A stretch of DNA of 39,486 nucleotides from Eubacterium sp. (GTDB lineage Bacteria; Bacillota; Clostridia; Oscillospirales; Ruminococcaceae). The notes below the pieces were generated by a model that had not been told where the DNA came from, did no database searches, and saw only the letters and a list, made by a program, of their open reading frames with translations. The stretch covers positions 1-39,486 of the forward strand of contig JAFLRX010000023.1 in the NCBI GenBank assembly GCA_022511265.1. The letters run 5' to 3'. The position numbers and the translations under genes were made by a program. Each line of letters starts with the position of its first letter. The stretch's first letter is position 1. Shown piece by piece: positions 23,717-28,820 of the stretch.

Positions 23717-23745
23717 AGTATATAACAAAACACTTATAATTGCAA
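23717..23745 (-). promoter_or_regulatory. Promoter of the GH26 operon
   Basis: Minus-strand TTGCAA (23740-23745), 17-bp spacer, TATACT (23717-23722). It lies in the 53-bp gap after pflA and its -35 overlaps the last codons of pflA. Confidence 0.6.
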
Positions 23746-24471
23746 GCCCCTTGAGCTGAAAATTTCCTTTATTTTCTCCATTGTTTCGCTGTCAGGGGGC
23801 TGGATATCCGACAGCTGATACTGCCGTTCGCTTTTTTCCCATTTATATTCCCCCATTTTGTGAAAGGCTATCGGCTCTACCTTTTCGATGCAGGAAAAAG
23901 CCGAAAGATAGTCCGCCAGCCTGCTTATTTGTCCGATATCGGCGGTATACTGCGGTACAATAACATGTCGTACCCATACTTTTATCGCCAGCGTTTCGCA
24001 CAGCGACAGCAACAGCTTTGCCTTGTCGGTATCAGCACCCGTGACTTTGGTGTACAGCTCTGCGTCATACGCCTTTATATCAAGCAGTACAAGGTCGGTA
24101 TACTTTAACACCTTCAAAGCGTCGGAATAGTCGGCATAGCCCGATGTATCCAACGCTGTGTGCAGCCCCATTTCCTTACAGCGGCGGAGTATGTCTGCAA
24201 CAAATTCCGGCTGCAGCAGCGGCTCGCCTCCAGAGACAGTCACCCCGCCCCTGCATATAAAGGAAAGGTAGTCTTTTATATCATCTGCCACCGTTTTAGA
24301 GTCGGTCTTTTTCCCCTCTCCCATTTTCCAGCTGTCGGGGTTGTGACAGTACACACACCTCAGCGGACAGCCTTGGACAAACACGATATAACGTATCCCG
24401 GGTCCGTCCACTGCACCGAAGGTCTCTACCGAGTGGATATACCCTGTTACACCGCTGTCATAGCTTTTCAT
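23734..24471 (-). CDS. pflA: Pyruvate formate-lyase activating enzyme
   Basis: 245 residues, radical SAM. The Fe-S cluster cysteines C35, C39 and C42 form C-x3-C-x2-C in [28 protein letters not shown], the SAM-binding GGE region, follows. It uses S-adenosylmethionine and a reduced 4Fe-4S cluster to place the glycyl radical on PflB. Its first 14 bases overlap the end of pflB, so the pair is coupled and needed together under anoxia. Confidence 0.96.
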
Positions 24472-26680
24472 GGAATGTCCTGTTGATTACGTCAAGCTGC
24501 TGCTCTCTCGAAAGTTTGATAAAGTTAACCGCATAGCCGGACACCCTTATCGTCAGCTGTGGATACTTCTCGGGGTGGTCCATCGCGTCCAGCAGCGTTT
24601 CACGGTGCATTACATTGACGTTTATATGATGTCCTTCTTCCGCAAAATATCCGTCCAACAGCGATACAAGATTATCTTTACGAGTTTCCTCTTCTTTACC
24701 CAACGCGTCGGGGATAATGGAAAAGGTATAGGATATTCCGTCGCTGGAGTATTTATACGGCAGCTTGGCGACGGATTTCATTGATGCCACGCAACCCTTT
24801 ATATCCCGTCCGTGCATAGGGTTGGCGCCCGGGGCAAACGGCTCGCCCGCCTTTCTGCCGTCCGGTGTAGAGCCTGTCTTTTTACCGTACACTACGTTAG
24901 AGGTTATTGTAAGCACCGACAGCGTAGGCTTTGCGTTGCGATAGGTCTTATGCTTTTCCAGCTTTTGTAAAAATGCCTTTATCACCATCACCGCTATAGC
25001 GTCCGAGCGGCGGTCGTCGTTGCCGAATTTCGGAAAGTCTCCTTCTATCTCAAAATCTACTGCTATACCCTGTTCATTGCGTATCGGCTTTACCTTTGCA
25101 TAGCGTATCGCGCTAAGGCTGTCGGTCACCACCGAAAGACCAGCTATACCGCACGCCATGGTGCGCTTTACCTTATCGTCGTGCAGAGCCATCTCCAACC
25201 GCTCATAGCAGTATTTGTCATGCATATAGTGAATAATGTTCAGCGTGTTGATATACAGCTTTGCCAGCCATTCAAGGATAAAGTCAAAGTTGTACATAAC
25301 CTTTTCGTAATCAAGTATCTCATCGACTATAGGTGCTATCTGCGGGGCTATCTGTTCTCCGCTCTTTTCGTCCTTACCGCCGTTTATCGCATATAACAGT
25401 GCTTTGGCAAGGTTAGCCCGCGCACCAAAAAACTGCATCTGCTTACCTGTCCGCATCGCGGAGACACAGCAGGCTATCGAATAATCATCACCGTGCATAT
25501 CCCGCATAATGTCATCGTTTTCATACTGTATAGAGGATGTCTTTATAGAGATATCCGCACAAAACTCTTTGAAATTTTGCGGCAGATTTTTGCTGTACAA
25601 CACCGTTAAATTCGGCTCCGGCGCAGGACCGAGATTGACCAGCGTATGCAGAAAGCGAAAGCTCATCTTTGTCACCAACGGTCTGCCGTCCAGCGCCATA
25701 CCGCCTATCGCTTCAGTCACCCATGTTGGGTCGCCTGAGAACAGCTCATCATAGGATGGTGTGCGCAAAAACCGCACCATTCTCAGCTTCATTATAAAGT
25801 GGTCTACAAATTCCTGTATCTCTTCTTCGGTATATCGCTTGTTTTCAAGGTCGCGGTGGGCGTAGATATCCAAAAAGGTAGATATTCTGCCGATAGACAT
25901 CGCCGCGCCGTTTTGCTCTTTGACAGCGGCAAGGTAAGCAAAATACACCCACTGAAATGCCTCTTTGGTATCCTTTGCGCCCAGTGAGATATCAAAGCCG
26001 TAGGATGCCGCCATTTCTTTAAGCTCGTTCAGTGCCTTTATCTGCTCGCTCAGCTCTTCGGAATGTTTTATCAGCTCTTCATCATAGGTCTGTCCCTCAA
26101 GCTGTTCCTTGTGTCTAAGCTTTTGATTTATCAGAAAATCCACACCGTACAGCGCGACCCTGCGATAGTCGCCTATTATACGTCCTCTGCCATATGCATC
26201 GGGCAGTCCGGTAATGACGCCGGAGTGCCGCGCTTTCTTCATCTGCTTGGTATATACGTCAAAAACACCGTCATTATGGGTTTTGCGATACTTAAAAACA
26301 TTGCCGATATCTTTATTTATTTCACGGTCATACGCTTTCAGCGAGCCGTGCACCATCCTTATCCCGCCGAACGGCATTATCGCACGTTTCAGCGGCTGGT
26401 CAGTTTGCAATCCAACTATTTTTTCCAGCTCTTTATCTATATATCCCGCTTTATATGCGTTGATCCCCGATATGGTATCTGTGTCGATGTCATACACACC
26501 GCCGCGCTCGTGCTCGGTCTGCATAAGCGCTTTTACCTTATCCCACAGCTTTAAGGTTGCCTCGGTCGGCTTTGCGAGAAAATCCCCGTTTCCGTCATAA
26601 GGTGTATAGTTTTTGATTATATAATCTCTGACGTCAATATCCGCCTGTAAAAAATCAATATCATCCGTGTAATAGCTCAT
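24458..26680 (-). CDS. pflB: Formate C-acetyltransferase (pyruvate formate-lyase)
   Basis: 740 residues. It converts pyruvate and CoA to acetyl-CoA and formate in mixed-acid fermentation. The catalytic cysteine pair is C404-C405 ([10 protein letters not shown]) and the glycyl radical site is G715 ([11 protein letters not shown]). Length and N-terminus fit true PFL, not the glycerol-dehydratase branch. GGAAG lies before the ATG. Upstream and convergent with nothing, it follows the ABC exporter on the same strand after a 90-base gap. No convincing Rex or FNR site was found. Confidence 0.97.
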
Positions 26681-26770: not shown

Positions 26771-28486
26771 TTATTGTGAAACAGTAAATAAAGAATAAAA
26801 CAATCCATGTTTTTCTATTAAATCATCAAAAGTGCCCTGCTCTGCTACTTCTCCGCGGCGCAAAACAATGATTTCGTCATATTCTCTTAACACGCTTTCA
26901 TCCAGCCTATGGGTCACGATAATGCGTGTGATGTCCTCCATTGCCAAAACGGAGTTCATTATACTGTTCGCCGTTATCCCGTCCAATGCGGCAGTAGCTT
27001 CATCCATAAGCAAAACCGATGTGTTTCGCAACAGCGCTCTCGCAATGGATATCCTTTGTTTTTCACCGCCTGATAAAGCATTTCCGTTTTCGCCGCAAAT
27101 ATAATCATTGCCGTGGGCGGTTATAAACTCAGAAAGCCCCGCCTTGTTAATTGCGGACTGTACGTCGCTGTCGGGAAAATTCTTGTAAAGTGTAACATTG
27201 TTATATACTGTATCGTTAAATACAAATACGCTTTGTCCCACCAGAGATACTGTCTGAAAAAGCGAGTCGGGATGGATATGCCGCAGTTCAGTACTATCGA
27301 ACATTATACTGCCTTCATAATTGTCATATGTCTGCATGATAAGATTAAGTAATGTAGTTTTTCCCGAACCCGAGCCGCCGACAATCGCGTATTTCTTTCC
27401 GGGCATAAAATCAAGATTAATGCCGTGCAGAGTCTCTTTATCATCTTCGTATCTAAACGATAAATCACGAATAACAATGCCGTGCGCCAAGGTATGAGGT
27501 ATCTCTTTACCGCTTGCCTCTTCATGCTCAAATAAGAAATCCGATAATTTGTCCATTATCGTTATTGCCGCCTTTCGATTTGCAAGCAGCGCAGGCATTC
27601 TTTCTATCGGAGAAATAACAAATGTGACCAACTGCAAGAAAACTAATACAATTCCGGGTGTAACACCGGTCCCCGATACGGCCATCCACGCACCGATAAC
27701 AAAAACACCAAGCCGCATAATCACGCTGGCAGCGGTACTGAGCAGATTAACATTTTCCTCCGTGTATCTTCTAGCATACTTAACGCCTTCGATTTTGCTG
27801 TTATCTATTTCAAACCGCTTTTGTATCTCTTTTTCCGCACGAAAACTCTTTATTACAGGAAATCCCGAAAGGATATCCTTTATTATTTCTACATATCCGG
27901 CATTTCCGTCCGAGACTTTTTTCTCCGCCTCCGCCAGCTTTTTTGCGGGCGGCAGAGATACGATAATAGGCAAAACCGAAAGCAGTACTGCCGCAAGCGT
28001 TAAAACAGGGCTGTACCATATCATTAAGATGAGCGCGCCGATAAAGCTGACACCTATATCCACGACAGTAAGAATACTGTCAAGGTAATAGTCCTCTACC
28101 GAGCGCATATCGTTTGTCAGGGCGGATATCAGCTTGCCGGTGTTTTCATTGGACAGCGAGCCGATTTTCTTGCCGAGTATTTTACTGAAAATGCCTGCTT
28201 TGTACGGTTCCATTGCCGTTTGAATAAACTTAGGTCTTGCTGTCCGAAAAACAAAATATGCAGCCATAAAAATAATAAAGGTGATAACGGCAACTATGAC
28301 TATAAAAGAAAGCGAGGTCGGATCACTCCCTGCCGCTATGTCAATTATTTTCTGTAGTAACCAAGAGATAACCAGGTTATACACGCTGAGTATAACCATA
28401 GACATGATTGCGATAATAAGCCACCGCTTGCTGTGCGCAAATAACAGGTGTTTTATCTGATTTTTTTCATTGTTATGTTTTTTCAT
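26771..28486 (-). CDS. ABC exporter, fused membrane and ATP-binding domains
   Basis: 571 residues, a type IV half-exporter. About six membrane segments lie between residues 20 and 290 (clear ones at 22-45, 60-80, 138-178, 250-290). The nucleotide-binding domain has Walker A GGSGSGKT (370-377), signature LSGGE (471-475), Walker B VLLMDE (491-496) and H-loop H526. It needs a partner half, either as a homodimer or with a gene elsewhere. The substrate is unknown: a drug, peptide or lipid. A 300-nt attenuator-like leader precedes it, an arrangement seen for genes induced by ribosome-targeting antibiotics. Leader and adjacent gene suggest acquired DNA. Confidence 0.93.
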   Translation of the reverse strand: MKKHNNEKNQIKHLLFAHSKRWLIIAIMSMVILSVYNLVISWLLQKIIDIAAGSDPTSLSFIVIVAVITFIIFMAAYFVFRTARPKFIQTAMEPYKAGIFSKILGKKIGSLSNENTGKLISALTNDMRSVEDYYLDSILTVVDIGVSFIGALILMIWYSPVLTLAAVLLSVLPIIVSLPPAKKLAEAEKKVSDGNAGYVEIIKDILSGFPVIKSFRAEKEIQKRFEIDNSKIEGVKYARRYTEENVNLLSTAASVIMRLGVFVIGAWMAVSGTGVTPGIVLVFLQLVTFVISPIERMPALLANRKAAITIMDKLSDFLFEHEEASGKEIPHTLAHGIVIRDLSFRYEDDKETLHGINLDFMPGKKYAIVGGSGSGKTTLLNLIMQTYDNYEGSIMFDSTELRHIHPDSLFQTVSLVGQSVFVFNDTVYNNVTLYKNFPDSDVQSAINKAGLSEFITAHGNDYICGENGNALSGGEKQRISIARALLRNTSVLLMDEATAALDGITANSIMNSVLAMEDITRIIVTHRLDESVLREYDEIIVLRRGEVAEQGTFDDLIEKHGLFYSLFTVSQ

Positions 28487-28561
28487 TATTTTTTCTCCTT
28501 ATATTCAAATACTTTATTGTTTAGTTTATAAAATGTAAATTGATCATCGCAACCACGTCCT

Positions 28562-28615
28562 CTACAAAAAAATCGGTCGCAAGGAAAGAATTTCCTTGCG
28601 ACCGAAATAAGGCAT
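28562..28615 (-). CDS. 17-codon leader ORF running through the attenuator hairpin
   Basis: Encodes MPYFGRKEILSLRPIFL. Its codons cross both arms of the terminator stem, so a ribosome translating it would hold the hairpin open. It has no strong ribosome-binding site and begins 2 bases after the stop of the preceding leader ORF, which would allow re-initiation. Confidence 0.45.
   Translation of the reverse strand: MPYFGRKEILSLRPIFL
28566..28605 (-). terminator. Attenuator: 15-bp terminator hairpin in the ABC exporter leader
   Basis: Perfect stem TCGGTCGCAAGGAAA against TTTCCTTGCGACCGA with a 3-nt loop, followed by seven T on the minus strand. It lies 80 bases before the exporter start and inside its leader, so it must be bypassed for expression. 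Confidence 0.8.
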
Positions 28616-28617
28616 AC

Positions 28618-28689
28618 TTATCCCAAAAAGGGCATACTAAGCTGTATAATCAGTGAAAAGGATAAATTTACTTTCCCGCGAAACGGCAT
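28618..28689 (-). CDS. 23-codon leader ORF
   Basis: Starts MPFRGKVNLSF and ends SMPFLG. Its start codon lies in the 3' arm of the leader hairpin 28685-28731, so initiation would depend on that hairpin being opened. No clear ribosome-binding site. Confidence 0.35.
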   Translation of the reverse strand: MPFRGKVNLSFSLIIQLSMPFLG

Positions 28690-28731
28690 GACAAATAAAC
28701 GGCTTTAGCCGCCCAAAACCATTATCATGCC
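28685..28731 (-). promoter_or_regulatory. Leader hairpin upstream of the attenuator
   Basis: Outer stem GGCATGA/TCATGCC with an inner CGGCT-AA-AGCCG stem. It follows the first leader ORF by about 10 bases, where a ribosome stalled on that ORF could alter folding. Confidence 0.5.
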
Positions 28732-28740
28732 AAATATGTT

Positions 28741-28761
28741 TTAGCAGGAAACGTAAATCAT
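28741..28761 (-). CDS. Six-residue leader peptide MIYVSC
   Basis: A minimal ORF directly after AGGAAGAGGTG at ideal spacing, the best ribosome-binding site in the leader and better than that of the exporter. An excellent site serving a six-codon frame points to regulation by translation. Confidence 0.55.
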   Translation of the reverse strand: MIYVSC

Positions 28762-28791
28762 CTTTTCACCTCTTCCTCTTAAATATATTAC

Positions 28792-28820
28792 ATTTTATCA
28801 TATCTGCTCTAGTTTGTCAA
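28792..28820 (-). promoter_or_regulatory. Promoter of the ABC exporter leader
   Basis: Minus-strand TTGACA (28815-28820), 17-bp spacer, TAAAAT (28792-28797). The predicted start near 28785 gives a leader of about 300 nt. Confidence 0.8.

Follow-up and report, generated by a model that had tools for sequence, protein, structure and literature searches.

The window (the whole stretch of DNA analysed, 39,486 nucleotides of Eubacterium sp. contig JAFLRX010000023.1) encodes an ABC half-exporter of 571 amino acids with one ABC_membrane and one ABC_tran domain (Pfam), bearing out the initial annotation, which had placed an ABC exporter here behind a translation-coupled attenuator. The protein resembles ABCB1- and MsbA-type chains; its best NCBIfam model is MsbA, and since the score is only half the cut-off (301 bits versus 602) we refer to it as an MsbA-like half-exporter. 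Downstream, 90 nt from the exporter, lie genes for a pyruvate-formate-lyase-like glycyl radical enzyme and a radical SAM protein (23734–26680), the latter probably the activase of the former. Four tRNA genes (Leu, Ser, Ser and Leu; reverse strand, 1277–1840) were the sole matches of the window to Rfam 15 at the gathering score, a search that returned no riboswitch or leader family.

Table 1. Features of the exporter leader and gene (positions of the window).
Feature	Position	Strand	Remarks
Promoter, TTGACA (28820–28815), 17-nt spacer, TG-extended TAAAAT (28797–28792)	28792..28820	-	11/12 consensus matches
uORF Shine–Dalgarno region (GGAAGAGGTGAAAAG)	28762..28776	-	Doubles as outer 5′ arm (1′) of anti-antiterminator; identical in L010 and L011
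uORF, MIYVSC-UAA	28741..28761	-	Last codons contain segment 1 (28751–28744)
Hairpin H1 (GGCATGA...TCATGCC), between uORF and segment 2	28685..28731	-	Contains TTATTT (TTNTTT) motif
Segments 2 (28679–28671) and 2′ (28666–28652)	28652..28679	-	Pair uORF and Shine–Dalgarno, or 2 pairs segment 4
23-codon ORF	28618..28689	-	Rejected candidate; ATG in hairpin arm
17-codon ORF	28562..28615	-	Rejected candidate; crosses terminator
Intrinsic terminator stem, segment 3 (within 28605–28591) and segment 4 (within 28587–28573)	28573..28605	-	15 bp, loop of 3
Terminator T tail	28566..28572	-	Seven T; sequence and terminator scan
ABC half-exporter, 571 aa, ABC_membrane and ABC_tran	26771..28486	-	ATG at 28486

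Upstream of the exporter we find each element that had been read off the sequence initially: a near-consensus promoter, the six-codon ORF MIYVSC (hereafter the uORF) with a strong Shine–Dalgarno, a 23-codon ORF whose start lies inside a hairpin, and a 17-codon ORF running through both arms of the terminator stem, which a T run follows (Table 1). Promoter-like sites occur in our scan at close to the chance level (4 versus 2.7 ± 1.6 expected), so the promoter call rests on its own score and on the two close relatives described below, in both of which the two hexamers are recognizable by eye. The terminator scan returned three stems (0.1 expected), two of which are parts of the upstream hairpin. 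The leader as a whole (28788–28564) folds with −85.3 kcal/mol, whereas dinucleotide shuffles (200 of them) average −50.6 ± 4.8, which gives z −7.3. The initial reading had overlooked a long stem, formed with 28679–28652, that buries the MIYVSC ORF and its Shine–Dalgarno in the best fold. Segment 2 (GCRGGAAAG) is similar to the 5′ arm of the terminator, as is the uORF end to the 3′ arm, which gives segment 2 two possible partners, the uORF and the terminator 3′ arm; we refer to the pairing of 2/2′ with the uORF and its Shine–Dalgarno as the anti-antiterminator, and to that of segment 2 with segment 4 as the antiterminator. The uORF ends 135 nt before the terminator stem.

Two close relatives of the exporter in genome contigs are those of Lachnospiraceae bacterium HAN039 (L010, 85% identical) and Eubacterium sp. 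HAN013 (L011, 84%); the same search gave four further, distant loci. The leader is kept from promoter to T run at both, while the neighboring frames differ (by eye) from those of the window, and this conservation amid differing flanks suggests that leader and exporter travel together. All three leaders have a minimum-energy fold in which the uORF and Shine–Dalgarno pair with 2/2′ some 60 nt downstream (28776–28762 with 28666–28652), enclosing H1, and the terminator is formed. The uORF peptide reads MIYVSC in the window and L011 and MIYISC in L010, the only variable uORF base being the unpaired one in the stem. The terminator stem is maintained in L010 and L011 via one-sided G-U changes, and one of the three leaders has both partners replaced in the apical pairs of H1 (the upper, apical helices of H1 are poorly kept across a wider set of 13 leaders, with 34–58% of cells paired). 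The conservation in related leaders anticipated at the outset thus holds for MIYVSC and the stem, whereas the 23- and 17-codon ORFs have changed. We judged both of these ORFs non-functional: the 23-codon frame continues into the exporter in L010 and L011 with other residues (its ATG being GTG in L011), and the ATG matching that of the 17-codon ORF opens another frame there, of other residues and length.

These comparisons bear on the mode of control first put forward, namely that translation of a terminator-crossing ORF lets polymerase pass. In the Tn916 tet(M) leader a conserved leader ORF runs through the terminator and a ribosomal-protection GTPase is encoded downstream; the window differs in having neither a conserved terminator-crossing ORF nor a gene for such a GTPase. 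In the window the stem is indeed crossed by the 17-codon ORF, and in both relatives by some ATG-started frame, yet these frames differ among the three leaders in frame, length and residues, by eye their starts lack a good Shine–Dalgarno, and what is conserved and covaries across the leader family is the uORF stem, well upstream of the terminator. We hence abandoned this proposal, whose probability we now regard as slight.

We searched for the leader in other genomes with a covariance model built from the three exporter leaders only (R1; window, L010 and L011). At E ≤ 0.01, R1 matched 10 other genomes among 291 drawn from the class and 5 among 199 drawn from the phylum (the two draws overlapping in some genomes), with a best score of 46 bits. 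By eye, an ABC-F ribosomal-protection gene starts downstream of each of the 15 loci, the gene being broken in one case (L070). At this last locus (1501–1964) the leader, whose uORF reads MRNFSC, is followed by an ABC-F frame interrupted after 78 residues. The weakest ABC-F matches (28.8–30.5 bits) score no higher than the reverse strand of the true exporter leaders (24.9–32.3 bits), and were therefore accepted on the uORF, terminator and gene present there rather than on score alone. A second model, R2, was built from 18 leaders (these 15 ABC-F and the three exporter leaders) and run against 125 genomes of the family of L011, giving 20 matches in 19 genomes: the L011 exporter leader, an ABC-F leader of the same genome already found with R1, and 18 new loci, every one of which stands before an ABC-F frame. 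Because R2 derives mostly from ABC-F leaders its matches lean toward ABC-F, a bias of which R1 is free. A Monoglobus pectinilyticus record in the plasmid collection (L073) likewise has the leader before a gene annotated as ribosomal protection-like ABC-F, and the total stands at 35 ABC-F and 3 exporter leaders. The search among leaders of resistance genes that had been suggested from the outset has thus yielded homology, in contrast to the search of Rfam.

The best NCBIfam model was the Lsa family for all 17 of the 35 ABC-F proteins that were scanned; one exceeded the curated cut-off and L073, which is complete, fell just below it, while the locus end truncates 15 of the scanned proteins. Matches below cut-off to this model also occur in control genomes (4 of 14), so that "Lsa-type" here denotes the nearest described family. 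One genome (G659, that of L011) carries both an Lsa-type ABC-F gene (L072) and the exporter under the leader; at E ≤ 1e-40 we found no Lsa ABC-F in the genome of the window or in that of L010 (G658, where scoring covered 92 of 109 first-look candidates). In a tree of the leaders the three exporter leaders are joined (support 0.996) and placed with L076 (0.93). The deep nodes are weak, and the direction of exchange therefore rests on the counts (35 ABC-F versus 3 exporter leaders, from genome samples not drawn to count exporters) rather than on a root.

Other searches were less productive. Exporters 40–47% identical to that of the window are present in 17 of 297 family genomes (L017–L033), at none of which R1 matches at E ≤ 1 or R2 below E 0.04, nor is there a uORF-like motif upstream (with just 262 nt of upstream sequence at L017). 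Several of these genes begin, by eye, right after an apparent upstream frame in an operon-like manner. BLAST of the leader gave only short pieces in plasmids and phages, taken as chance, and short matches in seven other genomes among the 297 of the family, judged chance by eye. With the L010 leader as query, the only loci recovered were these two themselves, along with three short matches among 250 genomes close to L010 and one among 80 close to L011. A uORF pattern run over 394 genomes of the order matched the window's own genome only, and scans of viral contigs for the exporter or the uORF found none, the three matches of another pattern falling in apparent coding DNA.

The uORF read from the first ATG encodes M-x-x-x-S-C (with at most one extra residue) in 30 of 38 leaders; L071 and L092 are counted as non-fitting by this rule, other starts giving MRQFSC and MYNFSC. 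In the ABC-F leaders L058, L059 and L061 (from 1501) the uORF is only MK-stop, and in L065 MKL-stop, while the RNA segment that elsewhere encodes Ser-Cys is retained; a uORF of two or three codons with the segment kept suggests that pairing, not the peptide, is selected in these four, and the MK-stop leaders can help to tell selection on the RNA from selection on the peptide. Any stall on the uORF would release segment 2, and with Ser and Cys codons at the uORF end of those 30 leaders the signal could be a general slow-down of translation or a shortage of charged tRNA (e.g., for Cys or Ser) with no antibiotic involved. Against this, the four short uORFs end before the Ser/Cys codons, and the relatives of the leader drive ribosome-protection genes; we consider a signal of this kind unlikely. 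Of the antibiotic- or amino-acid-responsive switch initially envisaged, a translation-coupled attenuator is very likely, perhaps one responsive to ribosome-targeting drugs, and the amino-acid signal persists as a rival reading only. Of 36 leaders (two of the 38 left out), 19 have the TTNTTT motif within 35 nt upstream of segment 2, where shuffled sequences would give 9.5; all three exporter leaders are among the 19. Because the rows are related, we treat this enrichment as a lead only.

We then assessed the alternative pairings. In a MAFFT alignment of 13 leaders the covariation score of the whole structure is 0.261; it drops to 0.075–0.131 on sliding the pairing partners and to 0.164 ± 0.012 on shuffling the letters. 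In the uORF stem 82% of cells are paired and 9 of 30 pairs are changed on both sides; as the structure scored was the window's own fold and the rows were found with a pairing-rewarding model, these pairing percentages lean toward the window fold. Mean duplex energies over 13 leaders (three exporter, ten ABC-F) for own, swapped and shuffled segments are −12.7, −9.3 and −3.9 kcal/mol for 1:2, and −12.8, −10.9 and −4.5 kcal/mol for 2:4. The 2:4 duplex is weaker in the exporter leaders (−9.3 to −10.4 kcal/mol) than in all ten ABC-F leaders (−10.5 to −15.4 kcal/mol), and relative to the latter the window leader has the stronger 1:2 and the weaker 2:4 pairing.

Folding was performed for 32 of the 38 leaders, six being left out since their segments were not all located (segment 4 of L081 also seems misplaced). 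In the free RNA, 1:2 is present in all 32, the terminator in 31 and 2:4 in none. When a ribosome sits at the end of the uORF, at least five pairs of 2:4 form in 13 leaders (10 with the ribosome at the AUG), the other 19 staying below five. In the window and L010 the terminator persists at equilibrium when the uORF is masked, with 0.0 pairs of 2:4, whereas L011 shifts in part; the antiterminator of the window is thus present as complementarity and is not favored at equilibrium with the uORF occupied. The comparison of folds with and without a ribosome, as proposed initially, consequently gives the uORF stem and terminator in the free RNA, but a window terminator that stays under the masked uORF. 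This outcome counts against the switch model in its simple form. We read the persistence of the terminator as a limit of equilibrium folding, because read-through is decided while the polymerase moves. If folding is restricted to the RNA made before segment 4 exists, a 2′:3 pairing forms in the window and L011, and at one of four ribosome positions in L010. A classical 1:3 antiterminator, sought by the same means, amounts to 0.0–0.3 pairs.

A terminator that is strong at equilibrium in every window state folded would also suit a constitutive 5′ untranslated region, in which the exporter is expressed through a leaky terminator or from a later promoter, with the leader as a relic. The 79-nt spacer between T run and exporter start (28565–28487) does hold a weak promoter-like site matching 9 of 12 consensus positions (28539–28511), but sites of that level are found at chance (the scan cited above), the spacer shrinks to a mere 40 nt in L010 and 20 nt in L011, and the conservation of the leader as RNA speaks against a relic. 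We accordingly hold this explanation to be improbable.

Taken with the homology to resistance-gene leaders, we conclude that the leader is probably a uORF-dependent, ribosome-controlled transcription attenuator of the ABC-F resistance-gene type, here controlling an MsbA-like ABC exporter, and that a drug-stalled ribosome is its probable trigger. In the proposed mechanism, a ribosome unhindered by inhibitor would translate the six-codon uORF and depart, upon which the uORF and Shine–Dalgarno (1′1) could pair with 2/2′; this anti-antiterminator would leave 3:4 free to form the terminator, and the transcript would stop before the exporter. An inhibitor that stalls the ribosome on the uORF would keep 1′1 covered and 2/2′ free to compete for the terminator segments (2:4, and partly 2′:3), letting polymerase enter the exporter gene. 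The likeliest inhibitors would be drugs of the peptidyl-transferase center (pleuromutilin, lincosamide, streptogramin A or similar), by analogy with published relatives. The scheme joins computational observations (the anatomy, its conservation, the homology to Lsa-type ABC-F leaders, the 1:2 covariation and the complementarity of 2 to 4) to steps that we infer, namely the inducer, the read-through and the handling of the inducing drug by the exporter.

The logic of uORF stalling has been shown experimentally for vmlR, cplR and msrD (PMC9226507, PMC10201436, PMC10314930). In Bacillus subtilis vmlR, the stall prevents the anti-antiterminator so that the antiterminator forms; as proposed for the window, the uORF (MIN) lies inside the anti-antiterminator, antiterminator and terminator follow, and there is a TTNTTT motif, a NusG pause signal. 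It differs in its ABC-F type and in an extra hairpin that hides the Shine–Dalgarno of the gene (PMC9226507), and the likeness drawn here is one of arrangement. The Clostridioides difficile cplR leader, tested with retapamulin and lincomycin, has a short uORF sequestered by a 5′ hairpin, a terminator, and an antiterminator upon stalling; its uORF is MRI, its gene a CplR-type ABC-F, and its terminator also hides the Shine–Dalgarno of the gene (PMC10201436); the likeness drawn is again one of arrangement. Published uORFs in this group are MR[I/M] for CplR, MIN for VmlR, MK[L/Q] for VmlR2 and MAGN for LsaA (PMC10201436). MsrDL (MYLIFM) shares with the window uORF its six codons and UAA, and its stall lets polymerase past an intrinsic terminator (PMC10314930), and mef(E)/mel is a leader-attenuated operon that combines an efflux gene with an ABC-F gene (PMC4335068); both differ from the window in peptide (MYLIFM and MTASMRLR), in macrolide induction and in an efflux protein, Mef, that is no ABC half-exporter (PMC10314930, PMC4335068).

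Attenuation of efflux pumps also has precedents. In the B. subtilis bmrB-bmrCD system, as in our proposal for the window, ribosome-targeting antibiotics act on an ABC exporter through ribosome-mediated transcription attenuation; its 53-residue leader ORF contains the terminator and its exporter is encoded by two genes (PMC4191407), the likeness drawn being one of control mode. The window uORF, by contrast, does not contain the terminator. Efflux genes patAB of Streptococcus pneumoniae are likewise under leader attenuation, tied to fluoroquinolones and DNA damage, and the accessible text names no uORF (PMC4319486). The Lsa-family ABC-F leaders of Clostridia and relatives (the 35 loci, e.g., L073) come closest: the window shares with them the short uORF (mostly M-x-x-x-S-C), the strong Shine–Dalgarno, the covarying stem that sequesters the uORF, a terminator 3′ arm that repeats segment 1, and homology of the leader, but its gene is not an ABC-F, the Lsa-family leaders preceding a soluble ABC-F protein and that of the window a membrane ABC exporter. 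In the papers searched (subscription journals lying mostly outside) we found neither the peptides MIYVSC, MRNFSC, MKNFSC, MYNFSC and MINLSC nor an exporter gene preceded by an ABC-F-type leader with this sequence. The initial suggestion of a switch not yet described therefore needs dividing: the kind of attenuator is already described (the cplR, vmlR and msrD leaders, and efflux-pump attenuation too), and its placement on an exporter appears unreported.

A broader reading, to which we give slightly less than even weight, is that the cassette is a movable antibiotic-sensing module, employed by Clostridia and their relatives for switching on Lsa-type ribosome-protection genes, that has captured a membrane exporter. 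On this reading G659 would hold a two-gene regulon of protection and pump, the pump would be the only target seen in the window's genome and G658, and the exporter would act as an inducible efflux pump for peptidyl-transferase inhibitors. The finding links an uncharacterized exporter to a type of drug-sensing switch, and so predicts its inducers and perhaps its substrates; it points to attenuators and resistance genes being exchangeable; and it yields a covariance model, for a leader RNA left unmatched by Rfam 15 at the gathering score in the window, with which inducible resistance genes may be located in Clostridia.
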